A program made the position numbers and the translations under genes. Below, in pieces: positions 1 through 31,591 of a DNA stretch of 64,000 bases; positions within the stretch are counted from its first letter, which is position 1, and every line of letters starts with the position of its first letter. Source of the stretch: Vicia villosa (lineage: Eukaryota > Streptophyta > Magnoliopsida > Fabales > Fabaceae); the NCBI RefSeq assembly GCF_029867415.1, contig NC_081186.1, positions 14,020,930-14,084,929 on the forward strand, in the 5' to 3' direction. The notes below the pieces were generated by a model. That model was not told the DNA's origin, made no database searches, and was given only the letters and a program-made list of their open reading frames with translations.

Positions 1-30
1 CTTATGTCCCGTAAGTAACAATACTTCCTT

Positions 31-790
31 CAAAGTCCAGTGTTTACTGGCATCATCTAATAGAGTCTGGTCGTCACCAGTCCTCTCTTTGTATTCACTT
101 TTTGTGAGTCCCCTTACTGCCTTTTGCAAAAGGGATATCTCTTGCTTCTTGCAAGTTTGCCTTGGTTATTTTCCTGTATGCTGCGTGCAGATTAGAGTGC
201 GAATGAGGGTGGGCATTCAACCAATCTCATTTTTCAATCATTTGGGTAATCATACTTGGTGTGTGGCAACTCGAATGAATGCCACTCTTGAAGAGTACAC
301 CCCGCCTTTTGGCCTGAGGGATCCATGTAACTTTTATGCTTCGCAAGCATCAACATCTCCGTGAATGTTCAGTGGTTACTGTCATCTGCGCGTCGAGTCT
401 AGTCGTTACTAGTCTTGTTTTGGTTATTTTCCCGCATGCCGCGTGCATAATAGAGTGCGAATGAGGGTGAGCATTCAACCCATCTCATTTTTCAATCATT
501 TGAAATACATACTATGTGTGTGGCAATTCGAGTGATTGCCACCCTTGAAGGGTTACACCCCGCCTTTGGCCTGAGGGATCCATGTAATTCTTATGCTTCG
601 CAAGCATCAATATCTTCTTGAAAGCCCAGTATTTACTGGCATCCCCTGATTGATTCTAGTTGTCACTAGCCTTTCTTTCAGTCAAGCCCAATGGTTATTG
701 GCATCGCCTTCAAATTCAGTGTTCATAAACATCCCCCGTAGAGTCTAGTCATCACTAGTCCTCCTCTATAAAGTCCAATGATTATTGGCA
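31..790. repeat. Block of 14-base mini-hairpins (5-4-5 palindromes)
   Basis: Short inverted repeats with a 5-base stem and 4-base loop recur at 37-50, 67-80, 399-412, 626-639, 656-669, 688-701, 745-758 and 775-788, with a shorter one at 370-381. Stems alternate between a CCAGT or CCAAT type and a CTGGT or CTAGT type, and each is exactly complementary to its partner. Two types often sit 29-30 bases apart (37/67, 370/399, 626/656, 745/775). Larger hairpins occur too: ATGCTT/AAGCAT near 337-351 and again near 592-606, and a GTGGCA/TGCCAC stem around 260-283. Confidence 0.8.
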
Positions 791-1303
791 TACCTTTTCA
801 GATCTAGAGTCACCCTACGACTGTGTCTCTTTTCGAAGTCTAACTAAGGTTAGCAGTTTGGTAGATTCCCCTACGGCTGGTTTCTTCCTTTTAGAGTCGT
901 CCCACGGCTATGTCTCTTTTTCAAGTCTAACTAAGGTTAGCAATCAGGATTGGATTCCCCTACGGCTGGTTTCATCCTTGTTGAGTCACCCTACGGCTGT
1001 GTCTCTTTTCGAAGTCTAACTAAGGTTAGCAGTTTGGTAGATTCCCCTACGGCTGGTTTCTTCCTTTTAGAGTCGTCCCACGGCTACGTCTCTTTTTCAA
1101 GTCTAACTAAGGTTAGCAATCATGATCGGATTCCCCTACGGCTGGTTTCATCCTTGTTGAGTCACCCTACGGCTGTGTCTCTCTTTGAAGTCTAACTAAG
1201 GTTAGCAGTTTGGTAGATTCCCCTACGGCTGGTTTCTTCCTTTAAGAGTCGTCCCACGGCTACGTCTCTTTTGTTCAAAGTCTAACTAAGGTTAGCAATC
1301 TAT
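790..1303. repeat. Tandem array, about 88-bp units forming a 177-bp dimer
   Basis: Six units share a CTAAC-taag-GTTAG hairpin at 840-853, 927-940, 1016-1029, 1103-1116, 1192-1205 and 1282-1295, so spacing is 87-90 bases. Two variants alternate, one ending GTTAGCAATC and one ending GTTAGCAGTTTGGTAG, which makes a higher-order dimer. Each unit also has CCCCTACGGCTGG and either AGTCGTCCCACGGCT or AGTCACCCTACGGCT. It is not protein coding: the open frame at 950-1195 is only a product of repeat length. Confidence 0.9.
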
Positions 1304-1450
1304 TTAAGATCCACCTTCAACTGGTATCTCTTGATAACATCCAACACTCTTTGCTGTACCACATAATGCAAATTTTGATGGTACTTTTGGGTATTCAATC
1401 CACTTACACCTCTCATGTCTGAAACACAAGATGTTCGTACATTCGGGTCC

Positions 1451-1472
1451 AAGAAGATTGAATAAGGGCAGC
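1451..1472 (+). other. Polypurine tract of Ogre-1
   Basis: AAGAAGATTGAATAAGGGCAGC lies immediately before the LTR start at 1473. Equivalent tracts precede the LTRs at 22107 and 50824, which supports a shared plus-strand priming site for Ogre-type elements. Confidence 0.75.
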
Positions 1473-3423
1473 TGTTGCACCCCAAAATTTGCCCACTTAT
1501 TTATACCCAATTGGCTTTCATATCACATTCATCCACATACACTCCATTAGGTCATTCTACGCAACATACATTCATTGGATACATAATCAAAGGATCAGAG
1601 GAATAAGGGATAGTTGCACATGTGAGCCCGTTTCTTGTGAGGTCTCTATGCGTTAAGGGCCTGGACTGAGACTCTCTTGGGTTCGTATCTTCAATGGAAT
1701 TCTAGGGTTTTTGGTACCAAGAATTGGCTCATTTTCTTTATTTATGATATAAGTCTTTACATTGGATTTCATCTTAAGACTTGATATGGGTATGTCAAGA
1801 TAGACTTCTCAGGACTATGGATCAAGGTATTCATCATCATTTAAGGATTAATTCAATTGATCCTCATCACCTCTTCTAACTTGGTCCGGGTGGGCTTTTG
1901 ATATCATTTGAAGTATTGAATTGACCTGAATATGCGAAGTTTGTCATTTGGATCCAAACAATGATGTGAAAGTGATTCATTTAGAATTCAAGTCTCGACT
2001 ATATGAGAAGAACCCATTCGTAAAGTTAATTCAAGTGAGCATCATGACTCGTTGCAAGATTCATTCAAGGTTTTCCACAATAAATTTACAAGCTTATAAA
2101 GTCCAATTTCATTGTGAAGGATCACTACAAAAAGTCCACAGTATTTACAAATCCAAAAGAAATAGAGAGAAGTTGTTCTTTATTGATTGAAGAATAAAAT
2201 ATTCATCACAATTATCCATTCAAGTTCCATTCAAAATCTATTACAAAAGTCCACAACATTCACGATTTCAAGCTCAAGAATCACTACAAGTCAAAGTTAC
2301 AAAAAGGGTCAATATTTCATGAGAGAAGGTCAATTATGTTTCGAAGATCATGATACGTTACAAGATAATCCATTACAAAAAAAGTCCTACTATAAAGTGG
2401 CAAAAGTACAATACAAAGGTACTATACATGAGAATTGCATATTTGCACTAAAGTTGACAAGCTAGTCCATTCTGTGTTTTCACCATGGTGCTAACTAGTA
2501 TGACAACAGTTGAGGAAGTCCACCCTTCTATGTTTCCAATCGCACAGACCCCACTGCTTCTCCACTTTTGGAACCTAGAACAAGAAAGAAAGGGAAGGTC
2601 ACATGATTACCTCTAAACCAAAGGCCTTAAGTTCATAAGCTCTATTTAACAGGTTTAAATCATTATCTTCCAGGAGTTTAGCCTGGCCTTCATCAAGTAG
2701 TCACCGTAGCTCTGCAAAAAAGGAGATAAAAAACGGTGCCTTCAGATGCTTCACAGAGCTGCCGACCTGCACTCGAAAGAGAAAATCATCATGCTAACAA
2801 TTCAGCACATATCCAACTCAGAAAATCACTTCAACTGCAGAAAAAATCTAGAAAATACAAGTAATCCATACACAAAAAACTAACTTCCATTAGAGAAATC
2901 CACAACTGTCCTAAACTAACCTACAACAGTTATAACAGTTTCATCATAACCCCATCACAACCACTAATGCCAACAGAACCTAACAAACCCTCTAACAACA
3001 TCTAACCTTCAAATTCAACTTGTTGCACAGTTCAAAATGGATACTAACATAAACCAAAATCAGATCACAGCAGTAGCATACACGCATATTGCACACACAT
3101 AACCAAACTTTCAAATAACCAATAACAGAATTAACCTCCATCCTAACCAAAAAAACCAACATAACAGAATTTCAACCCTAACTAACTCCATAACTACCAA
3201 ACAGAAGTAACAGAAACCTAACAGCAACTAACCGATTCAGTTACTAAACTAACAGAATATAACAGAAAGAAGAGGAGGAGAAACAGAAATGTAACTGAAA
3301 AATCAGAATATAACTAACCTTAGAATCTCTGCAATCTCGACCCTTCAATTCTAACCAACCCCACATCTCACCATTGAATCTCCAACCTTTCTCAAGCTCT
3401 AACTGAATTCATCCTCTTCACCA

Positions 3424-3431
3424 CCTATATA
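3424..3431 (+). promoter_or_regulatory. Possible TATA box of the Ogre-1 LTR
   Basis: CTATATAAC lies in the LTR, followed after about 25 bases by a pyrimidine- and CTTCA-rich stretch typical of the R region of plant LTRs. The short ORFs at 3448-3854 lie in this transcribed leader and are not thought to be genes. Confidence 0.45.
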
Positions 3432-4979
3432 ACAGGAACACTGCTCTATGCTTCAGTTATTCACTCTTCATTCATTCATCTCCATCCTCACTTCACATTC
3501 TTCAATCTTCAACTTCACTCACCCTCTTCATTCTCTTCCACCTTCTTCACCATCTTCTTCACCACCATTCTCCTCCACCAATAACCTTCAATCAACCACC
3601 AATAACCTTCAATCACCAAAATTCATAAAATCACCATCGTAGCAAATTTGGAGAACAGAAAAAAATCAAAGGAGAACGAACCTTGTAACAAACTCTCTGC
3701 AATCTTCAATCTCCCTTATCTTCTCTTCTATATTCTTCAACCACCAGATTCTTCAAGAACCAAAACTCTCGTCAATCATCTACCTTCATCTTTCTCCTCC
3801 ACTATGAGAATCATCGCTCTGCATCACTCCACACAATTCATCTCCAATTTTTGAATCTTCATCATCACGCTCCTACAACAACATCCTACACAAAAAAAAT
3901 GCGTGAATGAGAAGAGGAAATAGAAACGTGAAACGGAATGGAAGAGAAGGTCGGAAAGAACGGATAACTCACGTCGGAGCAGCTTTTTCATTGTGTTTTA
4001 CTCTATCGTCGAAGATTGAAAGATCATCAGGATCACTCCGGTTGCGAGGGAAACTAATTGATGAGGGATCGAAACCGAGTGACGTAGGAGAAAGATTAAC
4101 AATTACATGTGAAGGAAGAGACAAGAGAGGTTGAGTTGAAAGGATGACGTTTGTGGTGATGAATGGAGCTCCGTTACGGTGGTACTCATGGGGATTCTGA
4201 TCGGAGAAGAGGAGCGGTCGCCGCTGCGTTTTGTCCGTGAGGAGAGGAGAGAAGATTTTCTGTCAAGAATTCCAATCGGCCATAACACGTAACCCTAAGC
4301 CCTCTTTTTATTTATTTTTTTGATTAATTGTATTAATTGTTGTTAATTATATCAATTAGAAATATCTACATGATTAATATTAGTATAAAGTCTGAATAAT
4401 GATTAATTAATTAATATAAGGTCTAGATTAATTGTGATTAATGTGATTTTGGAAATTGGATAAAAAGTAATGGATAATTGTTTCAATTGATGTTGGATAA
4501 AGATAGGGATCACCATTCTCAGTGGGCCTAGACCGAATTTGGCACCATACCCCCACTCTGTCCCAATTCACACGTTTTGTGTGTGATTGAGTACAAAAAA
4601 ACAACCTTGGCCTATGTAGCATTTAGGTTTTTTAGTATAATTTTGGCTTGAATTAGAATTCCCTTAACACATAAAAAGCTCATAAAAATAGTAGTATTTT
4701 TTAGGCTAATTTTGTATTAGTACTTGAATTGCTTCTTTTATTCTTTTGTACCATTTCCATGTTTTTTTTGGTATAATTGTTGTGTGATTTTGGCCATACT
4801 TTGGCCTATGTTGTTAATATCATTCATATGCTCCTTTTAGAATTTAGTCACCATGTTAACATTAGACTTAGATTAGAATAACAATTAGGCTAGAAAATAG
4901 GTTAGTCTCCCCTCTTTCATTCTTTTTTCTTTTCAACATTAAAACACTAATAAATAAAGATGCGAATCACATTAGGAAA

Positions 4980-5248
4980 GTGATAGAGAAATGAGTGGGA
5001 TTCATTCCCTAATCTGTTTCTCAATCACTTAGTGGCATAGAAATGAGTGGGACTCATTCCCTGATCTGTTTCTCGGTCACTACTTAATGGGAGAGAAATG
5101 AGAGGGATTCATTCCCTAATCTGTTTCTCGAACATTAATTAATGGGATAGAAATGAGTGGGATTCATTCCCTAATCTGTTTCTTGAACATTATATAATGG
5201 GATAGAAGTGAGTGGGATTCATTCCCTAATCTGCTTCTCGATCATTAT
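4980..5248. repeat. Five-copy tandem repeat inside the Ogre-1 LTR
   Basis: Units of about 52-62 bases contain GAAATGAGTGGGATTCATTC followed by CTAATCTGTTTCTC. The unit can fold through GAGAAA with TTTCTC, or more locally through AATGA with TCATT. Copies differ by a few substitutions, and all five are in the same direction. Confidence 0.85.
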
Positions 5249-5864
5249 ACATTTTTATGTGATTCAAATCGCAAAGTAATTCCCCTTAAAAAATACCCAA
5301 CCAAAAACACTTAAAACACTTAATAAAGGCTCAAATTTAAACAAAGTGATGAAGTGGTGCGAAACCTTGTATTGGGTTTTGTTCATCATGTAGTTACATA
5401 AAAAACACAAACCCAAGATTCTTTTCTCCTTAAGAACATGTTGAGTCCATTCCAGAATTAGGCGTATAAGTCTCCAAAGGTTGAGCATCGTGGATTGTGA
5501 CCTTAACATCTGTTCAACTAAAAAACACAAAACAAATGGAAACTATTGAGCCGAACTACGGTAGCTCTGGTTCCTGGTAAGGGATACGTAGGCATTGGGT
5601 CGCGGGGCCTAAGCGAGCACACTTTTAAATAATTCCTTCTTTTCCCCGTATTTCTTTTGCATTCATTCGCATTTAGGTTTAGACATAGATACACCCTTTA
5701 GATAGAAACAAACATAGGTGGATACCATCGAGTACGATGGGCGTGAGGGGTGCTAGCACCTTCCCCTCGCGTAACCGACTCCCGTACCCTGTTTCTCTGG
5801 TCGAAAGACCTTGTTCTTATTTCGAGTTAGGTTTCCTGGTATTCCTTTCCCTCGATGGGATAAA

Positions 5865-5869
5865 TATAT
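5865..5869. other. Target-site duplication TATAT (left) of the SIRE element
   Basis: TATAT here is repeated at 19160-19164 directly after the 3' LTR. The 5-bp duplication proves that 5870-19159 is a single insertion into the Ogre-1 LTR. Confidence 0.9.
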
Positions 5870-6456
5870 TGTTAGAACAAGATTTGTTCTGATCAATATT
5901 CTTAGTTTTGATGATAACAAGGATATGAATTTTGTATGAGATAATGTGGTACTCTAATACTATGCAATTTCCATTTCAGGAATTATACAAAGAGTATGCA
6001 CAAAATCAGCGCAAGAAGCAACTGACTCAGAAGGTTCAGCATGCAACATCAGAACATGGTCTGGCAAGACATCAGAAGATGGTCAAGCAGAATCAGAACA
6101 TGGGTCTATGGAAGCATCAGAAGAGCTTGAGATCAGAAGCAGAAGCACTGAAGTTCTCATGGTATCACGCTCAGAAGCTCTTCAAGGTCAGAAGATAAGA
6201 AGATGCTCTGCACCAAGCTGTTTGACTCTGATGACATTCAAACGTTGTTTACACAAACATCAGATCAAAAGCAAGTACTAGACTGGCAGGCTACGCTGAC
6301 TGACAAAAGGAACGTTAGAAGCTATTAAAGGCAACGTCAATAGAACCAGCGGAAACAAGGCTCGAGGTAGTTGACAAAAGAGTGAAACATTAAATGCAAT
6401 GCTGTACGGAATACGCAAAGCATTAAATGCTCCCAACGGTCATCTTCTCAAACGCC

Positions 6457-6464
6457 TATAAATA
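6457..6464 (+). promoter_or_regulatory. TATA box, SIRE 5' LTR
   Basis: TATAAATA in the context CGCCTATAAATATGAAG is conserved in the 3' LTR at 18588-18595. It is the most likely Pol II core promoter and places the transcript start roughly 30 bases downstream, so the 6711-6812 hairpins fall in the RNA leader. Confidence 0.7.
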
Positions 6465-6710
6465 TGAAGTTCTGATGAGAAGCAAAGGTTAACGCACAAC
6501 TGACGAATTCTAAAACAACACTTGCGCATTAAACTGAAACGCTGTCAAATTCAAAAGCTCTCAAACTTTATCATCAAGCTCACTACATTGCTGTTGTAAT
6601 ATCTTAGTGAGATTTAAGCTTAAACTTAAGAGAAAATCACAGCTGTGATAATAGCTTTATAAGAAGCATTGTAACTCTTAAAAGAATTTGTTTACATTAA
6701 GTTGTAAGTT

Positions 6711-6812
6711 CTAGAGTGATCAGGTTGTTGATCAGTATACTCTAGCAAGTCTTAGAAGTTGTCTAAGCAGTTTGTTCCTAGAGTGATCAGGTTGTGATCA
6801 GGATACTCTAGA
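6711..6812 (+). repeat. Twin hairpins with TGATCA sites in the LTR leader
   Basis: CTAGAGT pairs with ACTCTAG in each of two near-identical units about 67 bases apart. Each loop holds two TGATCA palindromes, 11-12 bases apart (6717/6729 and 6784/6795). The 3' LTR retains the same design. Because it falls in the transcribed leader it could be an RNA dimerisation, packaging or control element; that role is inference. Confidence 0.75.
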
Positions 6813-7033
6813 AGACTTAGCAGTTGGCTAAGTGGATAACCATTGTAATCAAGTGTGATTAGTGGATTAAATCCTCAGGTGAGGTAAATCACTCCAAGGG
6901 GGTGGACTGGAGTAGTTTAGTTAACAACGAACCAGGATAAAAATCATTGTGCAAATTGTTTTTATCTTACAAGTTTTAAAGCTACACTTATTCAAACCCC
7001 CCCCCCTTTCTAAGTGTTTTTCTATCCTTCAAT

Positions 7034-7045
7034 TGGCATCAGAGC
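7034..7045 (+). other. Primer-binding site of the SIRE element
   Basis: TGGCATCAGAGC starts two bases after the 5' LTR. It resembles the initiator methionine tRNA 3' end complement used by most plant copia elements (usually TGGTATCAGAGC), with one substitution. Confidence 0.85.
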
Positions 7046-7117
7046 GCCGGTTCTATGGTGCAAGCACTTAACCGTGTTTAGAAAAGATTCAGGAAGAGAA
7101 AAACGCTTCAGTAAAAG

Positions 7118-9049
7118 ATGGCTGGTGAAATTCCAACAAACACACCTACATCTACATCTGGCTCTGCTGAGCAATACAATGGAAATGGTAACAATGGTTA
7201 TACTAGACCACCAGTATTTGATGGTGAAAACTTTGAATACTGGAAAGATAAACCGGAAAGTTACTTCCTTGGTCTAGATTGTGACTTATGGGATCTTCTG
7301 GTGGATGGTTACAAACATCCAGTGAATGCTACTGGCGTAAGGCTTACAAGACAAGAAATGAATGATGATCAAAAGAAACTTTTCAAAAATCATCATAAAT
7401 GTAGGACTGTTTTGCTGAATGCTATCTCTCATGCTGAGTATGAGAAGATATCTAACAGGGAAACTGCCCATGATATATATGAGTCATTGAAAATGACCCA
7501 TGAAGGAAACGCTCAAGTCAAAGAGACCAAAGCTCTTGCTCTAATCCATAAATATGAAGCCTTCAAGATGGAGGACGATGAAGATATTGAGAAGATGTTC
7601 TCAAGATTTCAAACGCTAACTGCTGGATTAAAAGTTCTGGACAAAGGCTACACCAAGGCTGATCATGTAAAGAAAATCATCAGAAGCTTGCCCAGAAGAT
7701 GGGGCCCAATGGTGACTGCATTCAAGATTGCAAAGAATCTGAATGAAGTTTCTTTGGAAGAGCTAATCAGTGCCTTGAGAAGCCATGAGATAGAGCTGGA
7801 TGCAAATGAGCCTCAGAAGAAAGGTAAGTCTATTGCATTAAAATCTAATATTAAAAAATGCACTAACGCTGTTCAGGCTGAAGAAGTAGATTCTGAAGAA
7901 TCAGAATCAGAAGAAGAAGATGAACTGTCCATGATCTCCAGAAGGGTGAACCAACTCTGGAAGAGCAAGCAAAGGAAGTTCAAGAGCTTCAGAAGTTCAA
8001 AGAAATTTGAACGAGGAGAATCTTTTGGTGGCAGAAGATCTGACAAGAAGAAAGTTGTCTGCTATGAGTGCAATGAGCCTGGACACTTCAAGAATGAATG
8101 TCCAAAACTTCGGAAGGAGAATCCCAAGAAGAAGTTTCATAAGAAGAAAGGTCTTATGGCAACATGGGATGATTCTGAATCAGAATCAGAATCAGACTCT
8201 GAAGGAGAGCAAGCCAACTTTGCACTGATGGCCACAGTGGATGATGGATCAGAATCTACATTAGAATCAGATTCTGAAGAGGTATTTTCTGAACTATCTA
8301 GAGATGAATTAGTTTCCAACTTGACTGAACTTCTGGAACTCAAGGCTCACCTTAGTATCAAATACAAAAAGCTGAAAAAGCAATTTGAATTTGAAACTAA
8401 GAAGCTGGAAGTGGAAAATTCTGAACTGAAGGAAAAAGTTTTAAAATTATCCAATGATAGTGGATCTCCTTCTAAATCAGAAAAATCCATTCCTAGTGTC
8501 AATCATATTCTGAAAGAATATGACTCGAGCTTCAGAAAGTTCCTATCTAGAAGTATTGGCAGAAGTCATCTTGCTTCTATGATATATGGTGTTTTTGGAA
8601 ACAGAAGGTTTGGCTTTGGCTATGAGGGTGATACCTCACACAAATTTGAACCTGTTGATGATTTGAAAATCACATACAAGCCATTGTATGATCAGTTCAA
8701 ATATGGCCATGCACATGATATTAGGCTCACTTCACATGCACAGAGTTTTAACACTGTACACACAAAGAAGCATGTGACACAACCTAAGAAATATCATGAT
8801 GTCAAACCTAAAGAATATCATGATGTTCCTCCTGTTAATTATCATGTTAAACCCAAGTTCAATCAGAACTTGAGGAAAACTAACAAGAAAGGACCCAAGA
8901 AATTATGGGTACCTAAGGAGAAGATAATTTTTGTTGCTGATATCCTTAGCTGCAAAGAGGACAAAGCACAAAATGTCATGGTACCTGGACTCTGGGTGCT
9001 CGCGACCCATGACGGGAAGAAGGTCTATGTTCCAAGAAATGGTGCTTAA
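7118..9049 (+). CDS. gag: Gag polyprotein of the SIRE element
   Basis: This 643-residue ORF starts at the first ATG after the PBS. Residues about 25-260 form the copia-type Gag core. A CCHC zinc knuckle (CYECNEPGHFKNEC) lies near 315-328, flanked by acidic serine/glutamate runs and lysine-rich stretches, and a charged coiled-coil-like segment follows near 405-450. Gag would form the cytoplasmic virus-like particle and bind the element RNA. The last 40 or so codons overlap the pol frame, which is +1 relative to gag. The overlap could be a programmed frameshift or a small lesion; the true Gag C-terminus is therefore uncertain. The Gag core itself shows no stop. Confidence 0.88.
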   Translation: MAGEIPTNTPTSTSGSAEQYNGNGNNGYTRPPVFDGENFEYWKDKPESYFLGLDCDLWDLLVDGYKHPVNATGVRLTRQEMNDDQKKLFKNHHKCRTVLLNAISHAEYEKISNRETAHDIYESLKMTHEGNAQVKETKALALIHKYEAFKMEDDEDIEKMFSRFQTLTAGLKVLDKGYTKADHVKKIIRSLPRRWGPMVTAFKIAKNLNEVSLEELISALRSHEIELDANEPQKKGKSIALKSNIKKCTNAVQAEEVDSEESESEEEDELSMISRRVNQLWKSKQRKFKSFRSSKKFERGESFGGRRSDKKKVVCYECNEPGHFKNECPKLRKENPKKKFHKKKGLMATWDDSESESESDSEGEQANFALMATVDDGSESTLESDSEEVFSELSRDELVSNLTELLELKAHLSIKYKKLKKQFEFETKKLEVENSELKEKVLKLSNDSGSPSKSEKSIPSVNHILKEYDSSFRKFLSRSIGRSHLASMIYGVFGNRRFGFGYEGDTSHKFEPVDDLKITYKPLYDQFKYGHAHDIRLTSHAQSFNTVHTKKHVTQPKKYHDVKPKEYHDVPPVNYHVKPKFNQNLRKTNKKGPKKLWVPKEKIIFVADILSCKEDKAQNVMVPGLWVLATHDGKKVYVPRNGA

Positions 9050-12010: not shown

Positions 12011-12437
12011 GAAGATGAGAAGATCTTTGTATGAATACCTTCTGAAATGTGTTAGGACTAGGCAGCTATAAGAAGTTCTGATACTAATCAATTAGAAGTT
12101 ATGATTCTGTTATTACTAATGTTTCATTATCTAAGTTGATTCATAAACTCTTTTAAAGCAAAACAGCTGTCACCAGTCTTTCCAGAAAATGAACACGTGT
12201 TCACTATTTTTTTTGGACAAGCATGCGTGCAGTTGAGGAGACGCCGCCCTAGGTAACTGTGCAAATCATTTCACTTTGTCACATTATCTCTCCTAACGTC
12301 ATTTCTCATTAAATGCATATTGATGTCATTTTCTTTTAAACAGTTTTCTTTTTACTTTATTTTATTGTCTTTTTCAAACCGTTTAAATAACCCGCTTCAT
12401 CTTCATTTCATCTTTTTCTCTCTCTCTCTCTCCATTT
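12011..12437 (+). other. Pol-env spacer of the SIRE element
   Basis: This is AT-rich and non-coding. It contains TTTAAATAACC (12384-12394), which might serve as a weak TATA element, followed by a CT-microsatellite-like run (12412-12432). The spacer precedes the env-like ORF; whether that ORF has its own promoter is unknown. Confidence 0.4.
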
Positions 12438-12974
12438 GTGCATCTCTCTCTTTGCATTCGTCTCTTTCAATACCCTGTTCTGCTCGGAGATTTCAGGACT
12501 CTCTTTGACTTTCTGAGGGAAAACCCTTCTAAGGAAGACCCAAGCTTGGTCATTCCAGAAGTTGTTGACCCACCAGAAGTTGAAGGTCCTTCTGCTCCTA
12601 GGAATCTTGCTGCCATTCTTCAGGCACTTGAGAATGGAGATTCTGAGGTTCCTGCTGCAGAGTATGGAGATGCTTCTATGGAAGAAGCAGATGCTGATCA
12701 TGTTGTTGAAACAATTCCTGTTGAGGAAAATCCTGCAAATGATCTGATCATGGAAGCTGCAGATCAGAATGCCATCCCTTTGGAAAGAAGTTGTGAAGCT
12801 TCTTCTGATGAACCTTCCCGTCTTGCAAGGACTTTGGAAGTTATTCAGAAGAACCAGGATGAGCAGAGATCAATCAATGCTGAGTTTCGTGCTTTCATGG
12901 AAAGGCAGAATGAGAGCAACAGTGGGATTCATGATATGCTGGCCAAGATCATGTCGAGGCTAGGGTCATCTTAG
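12438..12974 (+). pseudogene. Env-like ORF remnant of the SIRE element
   Basis: A 178-codon acidic ORF follows pol, in the place where SIRE elements carry an extra ORF often called env-like. The start is arbitrary: credible protein sequence begins only near 12500. Residues about 125-175 are rich in charged and heptad-compatible residues and probably form a coiled coil. No signal peptide or clear transmembrane segment is present. It is much shorter than the env-like protein described for soybean SIRE1, so it is probably a truncated copy. The assignment rests mainly on position and composition. Confidence 0.55.
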
Positions 12975-13446
12975 ATTGAGTCTTAGACTGTTTCTTTTTG
13001 CTTTGCTGCATCTGTTTTTCTTTGCATCTTCTCTTGCCCTTCCTCTTGTACTTCTGAACTTTTTCTCCATGCTTAATGAAATTTATCCTTTTCTTCTATG
13101 TGTTTGTCGTGTCTTTCATCTGAATCTTTTATTTTTTGATGTTATGACAAAAAGGGGGAGAAAAAGGTGATAAATGATCTGATTTATTTTATCAGTTACT
13201 GGGAGAAAGGCTCCACATTTCTAACAGAACTTGCAAAGTTCTATGTCTTTGAGTGTTGTCTTGCAGGAATTGAAGATCCTCTTTAAAAGCTCAACATGAG
13301 AAGCAAAGAGATAGGGAAAAGCAAATCTATAAAGAATAAACTCTTGGAAATTGAAGCAAGCTGAGTGCTATAAAGCTTCAAGAATCAGAAGCAAGAAGGA
13401 AGAATGTTCTGATATTCTGATGATAGAATATACTTTCATTCTTATT
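12975..13446 (+). other. SIRE 3' untranslated region, upstream part
   Basis: No coding signal is seen. A polypurine-like AAAAAGGGGGAGAAAAAGG occurs at 13149-13167, well before the true tract at 17987-18000. Several AGAAGC-rich words match the same family's LTR. Confidence 0.6.
13444..13446. other. Target-site duplication ATT of the CACTA element (left)
   Basis: ATT is repeated at 17383-17385. A 3-bp duplication is the expected signature of CACTA (En/Spm) transposition. Confidence 0.85.
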
Positions 13447-13459
13447 CACTACAAGAAAA

Positions 13460-13720
13460 AAAGTGATTTGCGACAGTTTTTTTTATGGTTGCGACAGTTC
13501 AAACTGTTGCAAAATCTGTTTCGCGACAGTTTCTCAACTGTCGTAAATGCGTGTGTCGCGGGGCTGTTTTACGACAGTTCAGAAAACTGCCGTTCTAACT
13601 GTCGTACATATTTGCGGCGGTTTTAAACCGCCCCCAAACTATATTTGCGACAGTTCTAAACCTATCAACTATTTTTTGTTTTCAATAAAAACCGCGGCGG
13701 TTTTAAACCTCCGCAAAATT
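13460..13720. repeat. Left subterminal repeats of the CACTA element
   Basis: Copies of GCGACAGTT, ACGACAGTT and GGCGGTT occur in both orientations, several as hairpins (for example GGCGGTTTTAAACCGCC near 13616). The matching right block (17180-17365) includes GCGACAGTT-caag-AACTGTCGC. These are presumed transposase-binding sites. Confidence 0.85.
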
Positions 13721-14290
13721 GTAAATTTTAAATAAAAAAAATTCCACCCCCAGTTTTTAGCATATTATAAAATAAACAAAATAAAAATTAAAAAAACTAA
13801 ATTCTAACCATATTTCAACTCTATTAATGTTATAAAAAAACTCTTTATTGCTACAACCAAAACCAATACACCATAAACATGAGTAGGTAGCTTAAATCAT
13901 GGTATTTGAAACCTCAAAATGTTGTGTGAATATATTCAGTACAAGTATAAGCTCACCAAGCATAACCAAACATATTCACTAATATGATAAAGAATAAATT
14001 ACTCTTTCAAACATAATTCTAATAAGTGTAACCTTCAATAGTACAGATTCAAATAACTTAGTAATTCTAACTAAAACTGATATCAATAAAAGCATAGTCT
14101 AACTAAAGTCAATATAAAAAGAGCTATACAGTGAATGTCGACTAGATTGAGCATGATTCCGATTGTTTATGATTATGTTGTTAAAAGAGACACCACTGTT
14201 ACTAACAGAAGGAGTATTTTGTTGTTGTTGTTGTGTTGTTGAGTGCGATGTGATTTATAAGATCCTCCCGTGCTGAAACCGGCAGACCTC
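13721..14290. other. AT-rich interior of the CACTA element
   Basis: No ORF or repeat with support is seen. On the minus strand, a spliced or 3' untranslated part of the captured gene may lie here (TTTTTGCAG acceptor-like sequence ends at 14298). Confidence 0.35.
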
Positions 14291-14828
14291 CCCATCTGCA
14301 AAAAGAATCCATGTAATAGTGAGATTAGAATTTGGTCCCATAATATCATATACAAGTATAAAAACCAATGTTGTCATGTCTCCGCTATAATGAAAATCAA
14401 GGCTGGAAACCGACTTTGATTTGTAAGTTTGACTTGGATTCATAGATGCTCTATTGTTGTAAAAGACGTGTTCAATTATTTTCAACCATAGACATTCAAA
14501 TCCAATCATATCGGATATATAACATTAAGAATAAAAACACATAAAATATATCTTAATTGTTATTGTGTCAAAGTCACTAAGAAATGCTTTGACTGCATAT
14601 CGTAAATATGGAAAGGAGTATGTGTGAAATATATATGACTGAAACTATAGGAAAAAAATCCGATTGGTTCTATACAATTTGTTTTTCAATACCAGTCTGC
14701 CTTTATCAAAAGGCCACAAATAAGTATACTGACTTGTTAACACGAGCGGTATACCATGACATGGCCTATCTTATTAAATAAAGTGCTTTTTATCAATTGA
14801 AAATAGTTGTGAATTATGTAAAGTCTAC

Positions 14829-14885
14829 TCACAGTTCGCACATCCGCAGAGGTATACTTTGATGGATCCAGTGTCGGCTCCTGCT
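14829..14885 (-). other. Exon-like block in the CACTA element
   Basis: On the minus strand an open stretch follows a possible acceptor (CATCCAAGCAG) and ends at a good donor, GTGAGTAG (14822-14829). It encodes about 15-20 residues including EPTLDPSKYTSADVRT. It is one of several short blocks bordered by splice-like signals, but no protein family was recognised. Confidence 0.4.
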
Positions 14886-15286
14886 TGGATGGAAGTTGTG
14901 ATGGAAAAAAAATCTTCAAACTTAAGAAACCTGGCACATTACATTGACCTTTATAAGAAAGTTCATAATAATAATATAAAACAAATGAAGGGCCTTCTTA
15001 AGTTCCAAAAGCTAAACTAAACCTTACATTTAACTGAAATTAATTATAGTAACAACAGTATAATATTCATCGAATTCTTCCAACTATTTTTTGATTTCTT
15101 TGGCCAACTCATGCACTTCAGGTGTCTATAGATCAGACATAACAATTATTATCACAACTTGCAAGAAACCACCAACTCCTACAACAACTCAATATATACT
15201 CAAGAATCACTAGAGTATTTTCAGAGACAGAAATTGTAATTACTGCTTTGGCGTCATCATCCTCAAAATCCATTTTACAAACTCAC

Positions 15287-15331
15287 CTTGTATCCATAAT
15301 GGCCATGGAGAAAAGCTCACAGTTGGCAAAG
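15287..15331 (-). other. 45-bp exon-like block in the CACTA element
   Basis: It is bordered by acceptor CCTTTGCAG on its 5' side and donor GTGAGT on its 3' side, both on the minus strand. It is open in two frames. Together with the 16236-16324 block it suggests capture of a host gene with introns. Function is unknown. Confidence 0.5.
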
Positions 15332-16235
15332 CTGCAAAGGTATGTTAAATCAATCAATCATTTGCTTCAATCTATAAACTGACAAATAGCTACCACTACG
15401 AATGGCTTATACTAAGGCACTAAGTGAGATTAGTCATTATGTTTTATACTAACAGTTGCAGGAACTTGATCCAAATTTAAAGAATCTAAAGCATCGAATA
15501 AAACTGAGCGTTACTACATTAGAAACAATAATTTATGCTTCACATAACGAGAAACAAATCACAAATTGCTAGGTTGGAGGTAGAAGTAAAAAAATTACAA
15601 ACCACAACATGAGATAAAGTTAAAACCAAAGTAATGAGAAGTCAAAAAAGATATAAAATATATTTTTTAAACATATACAAAATCATTTACAAATGATAGG
15701 AACTGAATGTCTGAATCAATACAAAAACTAAATATCTAGATTTTATCATAGTATGATACATTTAAGTAGTATTCAAAATGAATAAATGATAGCTTGCTGA
15801 TATATTAGATGAAGAAACTAAACAAATAATATCATCTTCAAACATTAACAGTCACAACAGAACTCACTGACAACAACAAGAGCATCTCTTTTACGTTAAC
15901 ACACATTCTACTATATCTAGTAAACTTGGTGTAATGTAAAATTTGAAATAAATTTCAGTAAAGATAAGTTGATCTTTTCTTCCTACTTAGAAAGAGTTCT
16001 ATTGTATATTGGTTAATAGTTTTAGATTGCAGGAACCTTGACGAAAGGAAGTAAAGGAACCTTGGGTGTTAATTACTTAATTTTATGTCATTTGTGTTGG
16101 TTGAAATCTTCTACCAAACCAGATGATAATACATTTCATTAACTTGATCATATATTAAAATCCAACATAAGTGCTTCTCAAATGCAGATTAAATAAATCT
16201 AGGAGTTTTCTTGTTGTAAGGGATATTACACATAC

Positions 16236-16324
16236 CAGTTCATGAACTTCAGCCCCCTAGCTGCAAGGTCCTCATTTGTCTCTGTCACATCATTCTTCCA
16301 CCAACTATCCTCATCACTATCTAT
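16236..16324 (-). other. 89-bp exon-like block in the CACTA element
   Basis: On the minus strand, acceptor TTTGTTTGTTTAAG precedes an open frame whose peptide begins IDSDEDSWWKNDV and ends GLKFMN; donor GTATGT follows. The acidic, tryptophan-containing peptide looks like true coding sequence rather than chance. Its phase is compatible with joining to 15287-15331. I do not recognise the parent gene; a transposase exon is not excluded. Confidence 0.55.
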
Positions 16325-16836
16325 CTTAAACAAACAAAAACAATCAAATTTTGGCTACCTTTATACACAAAAAAGAAATGGTTAAGTTATAAGCTATCTT
16401 CCATAAAATAATAAACCTCGTGCATACAGGTACTTGACGTATAAGCACTTGCCAGTGAAAATCAACAGCAGGAATAAGAAACTGATACTCGCTAACACTT
16501 CTTCTTGTGACACATGGATAATCTCCCTACATGAGAAAAAAATGTGGAGAAATCTGTAAGGTTTGTAATCCATAAGTCTGTCAATGTTAATGTAAAGCCT
16601 AAGAAACATTAATTTGTCATAGATTAATTTGCAGAACAGAAGATAAAAAACACTAACCCCATGGTATTAACTTTAACATTAACCTTGAACAAAGAGATCA
16701 TAAAGTTGACCCAAATCAGCATCATTGACATGAGAGTAAAGCAGATTTAATCGTGCATAAGGGTTCTTAAAGATAAAAAGCAACAATCTTATTTCCATGT
16801 TTTATATCAACAAGAAGAACATCCAATGAGTTATCA

Positions 16837-17130
16837 TCAGAATGAGGAATCGGAGTTGAAGAAGATAAAAAAACTATTGAAGTTTAAGAAGGATCTTAGG
16901 GTTTGATAACACAAACCTGTTAAGATTTGTGGTGGTCGTGGTTGCTTTGACGACGGTTGAGAAAGAGATTCGCGGTGGATTTGTATCGAGCAGAGAGAGC
17001 TCGGCAGTTTTCTTGATTCGCGGCTGAGAGAGAGATTAGGGAAGCAGAACGTGAAGAAATTCAGCCCTAACTGTATACCTCTTTCTCCAATGCGTGTTTT
17101 AGGGATATTTGAGAGACCACTGTTGTACAA
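16837..17130 (-). other. Possible 5' end of the captured gene in the CACTA element
   Basis: Open minus-strand sequence, serine- and arginine-rich, lies just inside the right subterminal repeats. A donor-like CAG/GTTTGT lies near 16919. It has no ATG at its start, so it may be a 5' untranslated exon. Low confidence. Confidence 0.3.
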
Positions 17131-17385
17131 TCTTCGTAGACCTAAAATTCACCCAGGCGCGCGCTAATTGCATATAGTTAGGGGGCGACAGTTCAAGAAC
17201 TGTCGCAGACTTCTCTTTACGGCGGTTGGGCCTATAACTGTCGCAAATTTTAAGATTATTTTAAAAAAATCAAAGGCGGTTGTCCAAAACCGTCGTGGAA
17301 ACTGTCGTAACTTACAAAAGAGGGCAGTTCTTATGGAACGGTCGCAACCTATGTGTCGCAAAACACTTTTTTTCTTGTAGTGATT

Positions 17386-17986
17386 CTTTATATGTTTTGA
17401 TGCATGTTTTAGTTACAAAATATGCTCTGAAACATTTTATGTTTGCATGCTCTGATACATAATTATATGTTCTGATACATATTTTATGTTCTGAATCATT
17501 CATGCTGACTTTTGTCGTTTAGTTTGTTCTGTAACATTTCAGGATGTAGAGATGCTCTGATGATGCTCTGGTACATTCAACAATGTTCTGATACAATCTA
17601 GCATGCAATGACTCAAGAAAATATTCAAGCTCTGAAGTTGTCCTATGGAAGCAAGAATCAGAAGCTATGAATACTCTGAAGATCTAGGAAATTCAAATTT
17701 TGAAGCTGTCCTATGGAAGCAAGAATCAGAAGCTGTGAATGTTCTGAAGATCTAAGCATATGTGAAAGTCTCTACTGAAATACTCAGGGAAGTCTTTTAT
17801 TTATAAAAATTCTCCTAGTATTTATTTCAGGGGGAGATTATTTATCTCAGGGGGAGATTGTTAATCTCAGGGGGAAACATATTCACACATTGTCTATATG
17901 CTTGTGCTATAGCTGTGTAACTGTCTTTAGCAGTCTGATATTCTGATCGCAACTTCATATCATTTATGTATGTTTTTGTCATCATC
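17386..17986 (+). other. SIRE 3' untranslated region, downstream part
   Basis: No ORF is supported. About 70-bp near-duplicates built around TCCTATGGAAGCAAGAATC occur at roughly 17633-17700 and 17701-17760. Three copies of TCAGGGGGA follow at 17829-17877, each resembling the real polypurine tract. Confidence 0.75.
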
Positions 17987-18000
17987 AAAAAGGGGGAGAT
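17987..18000 (+). other. Polypurine tract of the SIRE element
   Basis: AAAAGGGGGAGAT abuts the 3' LTR start TGTTAG at 18001. It primes plus-strand DNA synthesis in this family. Confidence 0.88.
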
Positions 18001-19159
18001 TGTTAGAACAAGATTTTTTCTGATCAATATTCTTAGTTTTGATGATAACAAGGATATGAATTTTGTATGAGATAATGTGGTACTCTAATACTATGCAATT
18101 TCCATTTCAGGAATTATACAAAGAGTATGCACAAAATCAGCGCAAGAAGCAACTGACTCAGAAGGTTCAGCATGCAACATCAGAACATGGTCTGGCAAGA
18201 CATCAGAAGATGGTCAAGCAGAATCAGAACATGGGTCTATGGAAGCATCAGAAGAACTTGAGATCAGAAGCAGAAGCACTGAAGTTCTCATGGTATCACG
18301 CTCAGAAGCTCTTCAAGGTCAGAAGACAAGAATATGCTCTACACCAAGCTGTTTGACTCTGATGAAATTCAAACGTTGTTTACACAAACATCAGATCATA
18401 AGCAAGTACTAGACTGGCAGGCTACGATGACTGACAAAAGGAACGTTAGAAGCTATTAAAGGCAACGTCAGTAGACACAGCGGAAACAAGGCTCGAGGTA
18501 GTTGACAAAAGAATGAAACATTAAATGCAATGCTGTACGGAATACGCAAAGCATTAAATGCTCCCAACGGTCATCTTCTCAAGCGCCTATAAATATGAAG
18601 TTCTGATGAGAAGCAAAGGTTAACGCACAACTGACGAATTCTAAAACAACACTTGCGCATTAAACTGAAACGCTGTCAAATTCAAATGCTCTCAAACTTC
18701 ATCATCAAGCTCACTACATTGCTGTTGTAATATCTTAGTGAGATTTAATCTTAAACTTAAGAGAAAATCACAGTTGTGATAATAGCTTTATAAGAAGCAT
18801 TGTAACTCTTAAAAGAATTTGTTTACATTAAGTTGTAAGTTCTAGAGTGATCAGGTTGTTGATCAATATACTCTAGCAAGTCTTAGAAGTTGTCTAAGCA
18901 GTTTGTTCCTAGAGTGATCAGGTTGTGATCAGGATACTCTAGAAGACTTAGCAGTTGGCTAAGTGGAAAACCATTGTAATCAAGTGTGATTAGTGGATTA
19001 AATCCTCAGGTGAGGTAAATCACTCCAAGGGGGTGGACTGGAGTAGTTTAGTTAACAACAAACCAGGATAAAAATCATTGTGCAAATTGTTTTTATCTTA
19101 CAAGTTTTAGAGCTACACTTATTCAAACCCCCCCTTTCTAAGTGTTTTTCTATCCTTCA
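18001..19159 (+). repeat. 3' LTR of the SIRE element
   Basis: This 1159-bp LTR is highly similar to 5870-7031. TATA box at 18588-18595; twin hairpins at about 18842-18943. It ends CTATCCTTCA and is followed by the TSD TATAT (19160-19164). Confidence 0.95.
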
Positions 19160-19679
19160 TATATTAGTGGCGACTCTGATCCATTTTTCGCGGTAGCGAC
19201 AGCATGTCAAACAGGGGAAGAATTCACACTTAAAAGGATAGAACATCATGGATAACCTTCCATATCCTGGAGATCAAGGGCACACCCTTTAATCTAAACG
19301 TCAAAGCATGAAAAGGTTATTTCTCGGGGCATTTCCTTCATGGCATGGAAATCATAGGCATCTTTTCCCACAAAAATATTGGGGTAATGGATATCAAATC
19401 TATAACACGCACAACATAAGGGAAAGGCGTTTTCATACTTTACAACCTCGGAACGATCTTTCTCCTAACTACGATCTTCAAATGCAAAAACAGGGATTGG
19501 GAAGTCGCGCTAGCATCACACCCCACCTTATCAAACAAACCTACAACTCCAGCGAGCTATATACGCTTTGGTTGTCAACAAACCTATCATTGGGGCATCA
19601 TGCAAACACGTCTAAATCATGCATTACATACATTGGTTGATACACCACACCTCTTCAAATAGTCTTCTTTAAGACATTC

Positions 19680-20410
19680 TACAAAACTTTTTAGGTAGTA
19701 TTTTCTAAGACATTCATTGTCCCTTCCAAGTACCTTTTCAGGTAGTCTTCTTTAAGACAATTTGTCATCCTTTTCAGGAGCCTCCCCAGGTAGTCTTCTT
19801 TAAGACATTCCTTATCCTTTGCTAAGAACCTTTTCAGGTAGTCATCTTTAAGACAAATGTTCATATCCATTCCAAAAACCTTTTTAGGTAGTCTTCTCTA
19901 AGACAATCATCGCTATTTCCAAGAACCTCTTCAGGTAGTCTTCTTTAAGACATTATTTTTCTAAGAACCTTTTTAGGTAGTCTTCTCTAAGACAATCATT
20001 GTCATTTCCAAGAACCTTTTAGGTAGTCTTCTGTAAGACATTCTTTTTCTAAGAACCTTTCTAGGTAGTCTTCTTTAAGACGAATAATCATCCATTTCCA
20101 AGAACCTTTTTAGGTAGTCTTCTTTAAGACATTCTCTTTCTAAGAACCTTTCTAGGGAGCCTTTTCTAAGACATTCATTCTCTTTCTAAGAACCTTTCTA
20201 GGGAGCCTTTTCTAAGACATTCATTCTCTTTCCAAGAACCTTTTTAGGTAGTCTTTCTAAGACATCTTTTCAGCCTTTCCAAGTAGTCATCTTTAAGACA
20301 TTCCTCATTCTTCACTAAGAACCTTTTCAGGTAGTCTTTTTTTTAAGGCAAATTTTCATATTCATTCCAGAAACCTTTCTCAGGTAGTCTTATAGAAGAC
20401 ATTATCTCGT
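19680..20410. repeat. Tandem array with GTCTT/AAGAC and ACCT/AGGT hairpins
   Basis: About 15 units of 40-60 bases contain GTAGTCTTCTTTAAGACATT preceded by AACCTTTTTAGG. Perfect 5-4-5 hairpins (GTCTT, 4-base loop, AAGAC) occur at 19745-19758, 19793-19806, 19891-19904, 19938-19951, 19980-19993, 20026-20039, 20068-20081 and 20117-20130. Loops vary (CTTT, CTCT, CTGT, ATAG). At 19731-19744 a TACCT-tttc-AGGTA hairpin abuts the next one. Confidence 0.88.
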
Positions 20411-20514
20411 TCCACTCATTACATCAGTCAACGCATACACATGAGCATAAGCATTATCCCATACATCAAAACATCCAATTCAAAACTCTGGCGCGAAGCT
20501 ACATTGTCCACCTG

Positions 20515-20625
20515 TTTCCCGGTAACCTTACCGATGCCAGTAATCGTACTGATGATAGCAACCTTACGGAGATATTCACCCGATCACCTGATTGATGTAT
20601 ACCGGTAACCTTACCGATGATAGAA
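20515..20625. repeat. CGGTA/TACCG hairpin repeats
   Basis: CGGTA-acct-TACCG occurs twice. A variant, CAGTA-atcg-TACTG, lies between them, so stem and loop both change while pairing is kept. Confidence 0.75.
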
Positions 20626-20698
20626 ACCTTGTTGTTCATTTCAGCATACATATATACGCATTAGCATACGCATATCATCTAGTGCATTCGCATACTAC

Positions 20699-20945
20699 AA
20701 ATAGTCTTCCAACCCTCGAGTCGTGAGTTTCCAACCCCCGTGTTGTGATTGGTGTGTTTTCCAACCCTCGAGTCGTGGGTTTCCAACTCTCGTGTTGTGA
20801 TAGGTGTGTTTTCCGACCCTCAGGTCGTGAATGTCCGACCCTTGAGTCGTGAATTTCTAAACATATCGTTCCTTTCCGACTCTCGAGTCGTGAACATTTG
20901 ATATGCTATTTTTCTCCGACCCTCGAGTCGTGAGTCTCCAAACAG
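20699..20945. repeat. CGACC/GGTCG hairpin repeats
   Basis: Units read TCCAACCCTCGAGTCGTGAG or variants, spaced 25-60 bases. Perfect 5-4-5 hairpins are at 20814-20827 (CGACC-ctca-GGTCG) and 20877-20890 (CGACT-ctcg-AGTCG). Others keep 4 of 5 pairs, such as CAAC with GTTG. Confidence 0.8.
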
Positions 20946-20957
20946 GTGAATCTTTTT

Positions 20958-21545
20958 CTTGCAGGTAAGTTTGCTAGAACTATAGCAAATGATTACTCTT
21001 ATGCAGGTACGCTTGTCAGAACCATGGCAGGTAATTCCTTTGGTGCAGGTGAAATTTGTCCAAACCAGGGCAAATGATCCAAATGGTGCAGGTGAAATAT
21101 GTCCGAACTAGGGCAAATGATCCAAATGGTGTAGGTGAAATTTGTCCGAACCAGGGCAAATGTTCCAAATGGTGCAGGTGAAATTTGTCCGAACCAGGGC
21201 AAATGATCCAAATGGTGCAGGTGAAATTTGTTCGAACCAGGGCAAATGATCCGAATGGTGCAGGTGAGTTTGCGATAACCCTCGCAAATGATCCTATTGG
21301 TGCAGGTGAGTTTGCGATAACCCTCGCAAATGATCCTATTGGTGCAGGTGAGTTTGCAATAACCCTTGCAAATGATCCTATTGGTGCAGGTGAGTTTGCA
21401 ATAACCCTCACAAATGATCCTATTGGTGCAGGTGAATTTGCGATAACCCTCGCAAATGATCCTATTGGTGCAGGTGAGTTTGCGATAACCCTCGCAAATG
21501 ATCCTATTGGTGCAGGTGAGCTTGTTAGAATCATAACAAGTGATC
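20958..21545. repeat. 42/43-bp tandem array, about 14 copies, each a hairpin
   Basis: Units begin GGTGCAGGTGA. Five copies carry an ATTTGTCC...GGGCAAAT arm pair, and about seven carry GTTTGCGA...TCGCAAAT or variants; two divergent units lead the array. Because the second type is 42 bp, reading frames stay open on both strands (plus 21185-21643, minus 21016-21534), giving repetitive 14-residue periods. These are not believed to be proteins. Confidence 0.92.
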
Positions 21546-22084
21546 CTTCTTACGAGTCCTCGCTATGTAAGACTCAGGCTTTAGCAGGACGGTTCTTTTC
21601 TCTCACGCTCGAGCACAAGATTTTCAAAGGTTTCTTCAACTAGGTTTATCACGTGAGTCCCTCGGCAGTGATATTCTCCAAAACATCATCAATAACAAAC
21701 AAAGGTTTTATTTTTCTTTTTCAAAATTTACCAACATACTTCAACTGACAATCATGCATCATTCAACTAACTCATTCATACATAATGCATATACATACAT
21801 TGCTCTCATTTACTTTGAGAAGCTCATTGCATCATGTATCGCATGCATCATAATATTGCATAAAATTCAGGTTGCCTTTTTAGGCCGTGCTACAACCAAA
21901 ACACAGTGGTCCCTTTCAAAAGCGTTTGCTCCACACTCATGGTATTCACCTCGGATGGCATCTGTAAGCCCATCTCCTCCAGAACTTCTTCCCAACAAGT
22001 GCAAATTTCGGGGCATTCAATATTCAATCCTCTTCTACCTTTAGATCACGATAGGCAGACGTGCCTATCTGCCTCTTCAGGTTT

Positions 22085-22106
22085 AAGAAGATTGAATAGG
22101 GGTAGC
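22085..22106 (+). other. Polypurine tract of Ogre-2
   Basis: AAGAAGATTGAATAGGGGTAGC directly precedes the LTR start TGTCATACCCC, matching the tracts at 1451 and 50803. Confidence 0.78.
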
Positions 22107-24880: not shown

Positions 24881-25038
24881 GCCGGGAGCTAGGAAGCGTG
24901 TCGCTTCAGAGTTGTCAGTTAGGGGACGTGTCACATTTAATGCGTGATGATGGCTAGGCTACCCTAGGCGATTAAGGTTAAAGATGACCATTCTGTTTCC
25001 AGTGGTCATGTGCACTACACGTGACATTTTCATGTACT

Positions 25039-25046
25039 TATAAATA
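25039..25046 (+). promoter_or_regulatory. TATA box for the antisense gene
   Basis: TATAAATA in the context CTTATAAATACCC lies 600 bases upstream of the antisense ORF. A splice donor (GTAAGT at 25174) and possible acceptors before the ORF (for example GACTTAG at about 25456) suggest a spliced leader. This is good evidence that the antisense gene had its own promoter. Confidence 0.6.
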
Positions 25047-29793: not shown

Positions 29794-29795
29794 TT

Positions 29796-30590: not shown

Positions 30591-30623
30591 TCAGAGCACT
30601 TTTCTCGTGAAATAGATGCCCCT

Positions 30624-31589: not shown

Positions 31590-31591
31590 AG

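Follow-up and report, generated by a model that had tools for sequence, protein, structure and literature searches.

Covarying stem-loops as a candidate RNA feature of several Ogre 3' tandem arrays in Vicia villosa

Tat/Ogre long terminal repeat (LTR) retrotransposons reportedly carry hypervariable 3' tandem repeats, as described by Macas in 2009. For Ogre elements, excerpts of two papers record such repeats and their growth into satellites (PMC7004042; PMC3305785), minisatellites of GmOgre (PMC3305785), and an Ogre share of 45% in the Lathyrus sativus genome (PMC7004042). In Retand elements, the region between POL and the 3' LTR is long and non-coding, and roughly half of the elements carry tandem arrays there, according to an excerpt of PMC11963269. 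We analysed a window of 64,000 nucleotides of Vicia villosa DNA (NC_081186.1, positions 14,020,930 to 14,084,929), which is part of a 2.03-Gb assembly, together with elements from the same genome, so that the analysis covers one genome. An earlier reading of this DNA from its letters alone (the sequence-only reading) took hypervariable 3' repeats of Ogre as established knowledge, in agreement with the excerpts of PMC7004042 and PMC3305785, and proposed that a hairpin persists beneath the variability. We lean towards the view, on comparative sequence grounds, that several of the Ogre 3' arrays consist of sense-RNA stem-loops in series, whose pairing is kept by selection while stem sequence and unit turn over; at least one family, with the loop ACGAAY, would keep its loop too. 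We favour this because compensatory changes exceed tree-aware nulls, loop words occur on several paired stems, and G.U pairs are preferred on the sense strand.

The window contains three Ogre 3' regions, each of which ends with a polypurine tract and an LTR start of a common motif:
R1, 1..1473, + strand: Ogre 3' region with its upstream part beyond the window edge, ending at the polypurine tract; LTR from 1474
R2, 19200..22106, + strand: Ogre 3' region; LTR from 22107
R3, 49449..50826, + strand: Ogre 3' region ending at the polypurine tract; not used in the sequence-only reading

The R3 element has the very long LTRs typical of Ogre (31968-35501 and 50824-54398, 94% identity), for which a range of 1.9-6.5 kb is given in an excerpt of PMC6431247. 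The window yielded no identifiable Ogre pol, and R2 holds no open reading frame (ORF) of at least 180 amino acids. Ogre identity was checked on two relatives. The ORF of one (L047) encodes RVT_1, RT_RNaseH, RVT_3, Integrase_H2C2 and rve, which is the Ogre order of reverse transcriptase (RT), RNase H, second RNase H and integrase (PMC6317226, excerpt; the same source describes an Ogre intron that separates the protease frame from the RT frame). In the other (L013), a DUF7745 ORF precedes the Retrotrans_gag ORF, which corresponds to the extra ORF upstream of gag in Ogre. We sampled 40 elements from the genome, taken from the first 42 listed of 6735 boundaries, all on one contig (C1), with two omitted as close to another. 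An array started within the last 1600 nt of 39 of the 40, compared with about half of the Retand elements in the excerpt cited above, and the 71 arrays sorted into 19 unit families. Like the known Tat/Ogre 3' repeats, these arrays lie between the coding region and the 3' LTR, have short family-specific units, and occur several to an element.

We judged covariation against a null in which columns evolve independently on an inferred tree, with identical copies counted once in the tree tests, and additionally ran an unbiased search in which all helices were scanned and null data were treated alike. R1 carries the following hairpins:
37..788, + strand: F1 hairpins with a 5-bp stem and 4-nt loop, CCAGT (37, 626), CTGGT (67), CTAGT (399, 656, 745) and CCAAT (688, 775), with imperfect copies at 369 and 716
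805..1301, + strand: 87-bp array with CTAAC-taag-GTTAG in 6 copies, and a second hairpin GAGTCAC/GTGTCTC, GAGTCGT/ACGTCTC, GATTCC/GGTTTC, whose arms covary

R1 units carry CCAGT, CCAAT, CTAGT, CTGGT or CTAAC, with the complement of each lying 4 nt on, and 95.7% of pair cells were paired, as against at most 46% when the partner was slid. Both-side changes numbered 17 compared with 2.0 under the tree-aware null (p = 0.002), all five pairs were altered on both sides, and the unbiased search recovered the helix (p = 0.0033, the floor). This set (A1) assumes homology of unit types a, b and c, which is our own reading of the alignment. Subsets gave both-side changes at p = 0.0015 (a+b), 0.001 (b+c) and 0.0145 (a alone), while the paired share by itself gave p = 0.10, 0.19 and 0.26, respectively. 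In the 87-bp unit, the second hairpin showed 15 both-side changes against 2.0 (p = 0.001). The cores named in the sequence-only reading (CCAGT, CTAGT, CTAAC, GTCTT, CGGTA, CGACC and the 42-bp unit) do occur in the sequence, but the count of seven unrelated arrays probably does not hold: CCAGT, CTAGT and CTAAC, with CCAAT and CTGGT, share similar flanks (ARAGTC...) and appear to be a single family whose arms vary, and we rejected their treatment as mutually unrelated.

The same behaviour was seen in locus L079, an expanded R1-type array of ~30-nt units which was spotted post hoc among 17 fetched loci. Adjacent units have different yet paired arms (CCAAT, CCTGT, CTAAT, CTGGT, CTAGT, CTGAT, CTAAC), with CCTGT, CTAAT, CTGGT, CTAGT as a recurring order. 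Units were selected visually among 38 GTC-anchored sites and in a print of the array; 19 form set A12, a 23-unit set includes four more whose flanks differ, of which three are paired and one is broken, and two units with 5-nt loops were omitted from both. Among the 23 units, all with 4-nt loops, 21 were fully paired and both-side changes were 25 against 3.1 (p = 0.0005, the floor). The 19-unit subset, in which 14 units were all-Watson-Crick, four had one G.U and one had an A.C, gave 19 against 2.5, and its helix was recovered by the unbiased search (p = 0.001, the floor).

A longer stem is found in R2:
20958..21547, + strand: 42-bp array (F6), 14 copies, with a 7-8 bp stem and 6-nt loop, TTTGCGA/TCGCAAA, TTTGCAA/TTGCAAA, TTTGCTA/TAGCAAA, CTTGTTA/TAACAAG, TTTGTCC/GGGCAAA

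In the window, both-side changes in this array were 12 against 1.4 (p = 0.001). Of 23 sources, 22 contain the hairpin, in 267 copies of which 188 are distinct; here 93.1% was paired compared with 63.4±7.4, and both-side changes reached 132 against 24±18 (p = 0.002, the floor). One pair takes all four Watson-Crick types, and the unbiased search recovered the helix. The loci were located by a pattern that includes five bases of one arm, and copies were gathered by similarity to one unit, which biases the collection against diverged arms. By set label, covariation went beyond the tree-aware null in A1, A2, A8, F6 and L079, gave p values of 0.02-0.04 in A7 and A3, and did not exceed the null in A4, A5, A6 and A9.

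Two loop words recur on stems that differ in sequence, and both are represented in R3:
49952..50350, + strand: 41-bp array with the octaloop hairpin GGTC-taatgtat-GACT; an extra copy at 50618
50354..50550, + strand: 48-bp units with loop ACGAAY and stems CACC/GGTG, TACT/GGTG, CATC/GGTG; the fourth copy is TACT-ataaaa-GGTA

Taken alone, neither the 41-bp (p = 0.17) nor the 48-bp array (p = 0.15) showed significant covariation. Across arrays, the octaloop TRAYGYAY had fully paired 4-bp arms at 91 of 100 sites, with eight different 5' arms, compared with 64.8±2.7 for shuffled partners (maximum 75 of 2000 shuffles), and ACGAAY was paired at 80 of 102 sites compared with 53.1±3.2 (maximum 65). When all sites were considered, pairing on the sense and the opposite strand stood at 90/128 and 1/35 for TAAYGYAY, and at 114/242 and 0/56 for ACGAAY. 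Permuted octaloop control words gave 0-1 paired sites, and of two hexaloop controls one, CAGAAY, was paired at 10 of 168 (expected 3.3). The loop-word table held 34 words forward, 33 in reverse complement and 34 in reversed sequence, so the bare number of words is not strand-specific. Since these sites were collected by loop word, they do not alone establish loop conservation. In family alignments, divergence was lowest in the loop in L010_p48, an ACGAAY family (stem 0.22, flank 0.14, loop 0.03), and in L048_p47 (0.14, 0.08 and 0.03). With loops of up to 30 nt, L010_p48 gained an outer stem TCAGT/ACTGA (49 against 6.4, p = 0.005). A fifth stem pair was present in 2 of 95 octaloop hairpins and in 23 of 111 ACGAAY hairpins, where stem length is thus less strict.

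If the sense RNA folds, changes to G.U should outnumber changes to A.C. In 14 hairpin sets of our choosing, tree-resolved changes within stems comprised 74 from Watson-Crick to G.U and 48 from Watson-Crick to A.C, whereas flanks gave 206 and 249 in matching mutation classes (Fisher p = 0.003). In folding energy, the sense strand leaned ahead of the antisense strand at -200 to -1500, in 26, 27 and 24 of the 40 elements, a lean not limited to the arrays.

Hairpin density was compared with dinucleotide shuffles and with other element parts, a check proposed in the sequence-only reading, by counting stems of at least 5 bp around a 4-nt loop (5-4-5). Raw counts were high in R1 (17 against 1.2) and R2 (19 against 3.2) but not in R3 (3 against 1.5), while three LTRs (4 against 6.2, 10 against 6.3, 10 against 6.8) and the leader (1 against 2.8) were near or below expectation. 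The contrast with other parts held only in part, as counts were also raised in 22107-25000, which covers the fourth LTR and beyond (10 against 4.0), in 25001-31967 (13 against 5.7) and in a copia stretch (16 against 7.2). Raw counts are inflated because of tandem copying; with each array counted once, R1 stood at 15 against 4.0 (p = 0.001), R2 marginally at 11 against 6.7 (p = 0.055), and R3 at 8 against 5.1, which is not significant (p = 0.13). Within the initial 160 bases of R1 there are five hairpins, no two alike in their arms, against an expectation of 0.59 (p = 0.0005, the floor), and all 17 fetched R1-type loci exceeded shuffles in raw hairpins (7-21 against 3.8-6.4 per kb). In the 40 elements with arrays collapsed, the last 150-1500 nt contained 75 5-4-5 hairpins against 38, and 247 against 174 with loops of 3-8 nt (31 of 40 elements above), whereas -3.0 to -4.5 kb gave 71 against 66 and 320 against 310, respectively.

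The remaining arrays of R2, and one within an LTR, are as follows:
19645..20402, + strand: 46-bp array, ACCT-tttt-AGGT and GTCTT-cttt-AAGAC
20519..20637, + strand: 18-bp units, CGGTA-acct-TACCG (2), CAGTA-atcg-TACTG and CGATC-acct-GATTG (one G.U), with two degraded copies
20707..20935, + strand: CGACY-ctcg-AGTCG / CAACC-cccg-TGTTG units, 8 copies, the innermost pair broken in 6 of 8
4987..5249, + strand: 55-bp array within the LTR, AGAAA/TTTCT stem, one compensated copy AGAAG/CTTCT

Covariation was detected in the CGGTA (p = 0.023) and CGACC (p = 0.04) arrays and was not significant in the LTR array (p = 0.14). Close to the end of R2 lies a perfect 8-4-8 hairpin, GATAGGCA-gacg-TGCCTATC, at 22050-22069. 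The Ogre LTR that begins at 1474 is interrupted by a copia-type element (5868-19159, LTRs 98% identical). The Ogre LTR starts flanking R2 (1474-5866 and 22107 onward) had no mutual match in self-BLAST at E 1e-10; they therefore belong either to different elements or to one rearranged element. The LTR-start pattern had no match in viral contigs, and an Rfam search of the window returned 0 matches at the gathering threshold.

Hairpins are also found in the Ogre leader:
36347..36365, + strand: AGAGAA-tttattt-TTCTCT
36412..36430, + strand: AGAGAA-tttattt-TCCTCT, with one A.C

Leader hairpins of the form AGAGRA-tttattt-TYCTCT recur in many loci near -4.2 kb, and in several elements another hairpin built on this loop word, TTCTCA-tttattt-TGAGAA, precedes the 3' arrays. 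In another repetitive region, the palindrome AGGTCGACCT occurs in repeats at 58080-58382, which include a 61-bp array (58225-58382). Directly 5' of the polypurine tract, an imperfect inverted repeat of the type GTTCAATC...GATTGAAC is present at the ends of R1, R2 and R3 (before 1474, 22107 and 50827) and at 40 genome loci, with at most two mismatches in nine in 42 of 43 sequences. It folds far better in the antisense orientation (alifold -32.6 against -5.0), opposite to the arrays.

Several results weigh against selection on sense-RNA hairpins. The best simple hairpin per unit did not exceed that of shuffled units in the 19 genome families (one with p < 0.05, Fisher p = 0.32), nor did it in nine window units (Fisher p = 0.18); an energy-based version gave p < 0.05 in 5 of 19 families. 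Geometry varies, with 4-6-4, 4-8-4, 7-6-7 and 5-11-5 beside 5-4-5. The statement of the sequence-only reading that each array centres on a hairpin, usually 5-4-5, is thus not sustained, and we rejected a strict 5-4-5 rule because per-unit hairpins are at the level expected by chance. Its formula that the unit changes and the hairpin stays applies to arrays with compensatory changes and fails in others, such as the GTCTT array, which had 0 both-side changes and no covariation (p = 1.0). Likewise, its proposal of an RNA device that keeps shape while sequence evolves, with packaging, nuclear retention, Gag binding or a dsRNA decoy as conceivable roles, agrees in shape with the compensatory stem changes and the sense G.U excess of several arrays, but loses the universal 5-4-5 rule.

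The unbiased search was not significant for A3, A4, A5 and A9 and found no qualifying helix in A7 and A8. In 17 genome families (those with fewer than five distinct rows left out), only three reached p ≤ 0.05 after two-rotation correction, and the combined Fisher p was 0.028 for loops to 12 and 0.049 for loops to 30. The commonest family, L037_p44 (14 arrays), showed no covariation with loops up to 12 (p = 0.995, 0.81); with loops to 30 it had an outer stem TTAAG/CTTAA with essentially one covarying pair (A-T 53, G-C 13; p = 0.04, other rotation 0.17). That pair was also the best (E 0.05) in an R-scape-like tree-aware pairwise G-test of 13 genome families with at least eight distinct rows. The best hairpin pair in seven window alignments had E 0.093, and no hairpin pair fell below E 0.05; the power of this test is low because short units yield few substitutions. 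A classification by helix length was rejected, its signal being diluted (compensated: 2.4% of control pairs, and 14.8% in one rotation and 3.1% in the other for 5-bp helices). Loops in the octaloop families were no more conserved than flanks (L012_p41, 0.11 against 0.09; L021, 0.05-0.07 against 0.08), and the loop was the most variable part of the 42-bp and GTCTT families. As for strand, pooled loop-class counts of G.U and A.C were 71:64 (p = 0.30), the GTCTT and CGACC sets leaned the opposite way, and the sense folding lean extended outside the arrays (25 of 40 elements each at -2 to -3 kb and -4 to -5 kb). Over the final 200 nt, antisense folded better in 36 of 40 elements, which is probably owed to the inverted repeat beside the polypurine tract. 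The collapsed 5-4-5 excess of ~1.4 was also found at -1.5 to -3.0 kb (110 against 78) and -4.5 to -6.0 kb (111 against 80). Finally, the sample consists of related elements of one genome, known from sequence.

The main rival is mutational palindrome repair, or quasi-palindrome correction, in which the nascent strand, during reverse transcription, jumps across an imperfect hairpin and takes the opposite arm as template, giving complementarity without selection. It yields simultaneous two-arm changes, and ~21 direct double changes from one Watson-Crick pair to another were reconstructed; it also fits the free loops of the 42-bp and GTCTT families, and array growth through abnormal strand transfer has been proposed (PMC7004042, excerpt, with reference to Macas 2009). 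We nevertheless hold it to be rather unlikely, as it predicts neither the near-invariant ACGAAY loop beside the variable stem of L010_p48, nor a sense-strand G.U excess, nor the constant stem length of the octaloop hairpins, although ACGAAY stems are less constant. A 5-bp hairpin exists in most 45-nt units, and chance hairpins copied by tandem duplication without constraint would account for the unit-level tests, the GTCTT array without covariation and the lack of excess in R3. Such copying does not make the compensatory changes of R1, the 42-bp array and L079; it is contradicted there and stands for other families, and as an account of the whole we find it improbable. The dyad symmetry might instead act in double-stranded DNA, as a cruciform or protein site in chromatin or satellite amplification, and Ogre 3' repeats do seed satellites in Lathyrus (PMC7004042, excerpt). 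A G.U strand preference is unexpected of a strand-symmetric signal, even though the pooled count of 71:64 lacks it, and we consider a function at the DNA level very doubtful.

If the hairpins are selected in sense RNA, they would probably serve as multivalent docking sites, with Gag the likeliest of the element's RNA-binding proteins to use them, and docking would help packaging or dimerisation of the large element RNA. Tandem copying would multiply the docking site and allow arms to drift in concert. Retroviral packaging and dimerisation stem-loops are genomic-RNA hairpins with exposed loops in the 5' leader; the candidate Ogre hairpins would share the exposed loops but are tandem and 3'. The Xist A-repeat repeats one stem-loop many times within an RNA and so shares tandem stem-loops with the Ogre arrays, whose arms, however, differ among copies and families. 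A bolder version, which we regard as unlikely, sees Ogre 3' regions as shape-first RNAs with a kept loop, a swappable stem and a tandem multivalent binding array, in which stem turnover would evade sequence-matched host small RNAs while docking sites are kept.

Our literature search did not find covarying hairpins in Ogre 3' repeats stated; the 2009 work of Macas was outside that search, and absence in print is not proved. The main texts of PMC7004042 and PMC3305785 do not contain 'hairpin', 'palindrom' or 'secondary structure', whereas the present stems covary. The Retand paper (PMC11963269) describes tandem arrays in a non-coding 3' part as here, and its main text lacks 'hairpin' and 'secondary structure'. 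Hairpins in plant tandem repeats have been noted earlier, in excerpts that do not mention Ogre 3' regions, covariation or RNA, and where excerpts of the LTR-retrotransposon and Ogre literature mention them, the context is target-site palindromes, tandem repeats in Silene, the design of probes, or Helitrons. Covarying arms suggest that a functional RNA shape exists where hypervariable filler had been assumed. If the hairpins are indeed selected in RNA, Ogre elements would carry unexplored RNA machinery in a region regarded as a hypervariable satellite seed, and such selected hairpins could explain the frequent birth of tandem repeats in Ogre 3' regions.

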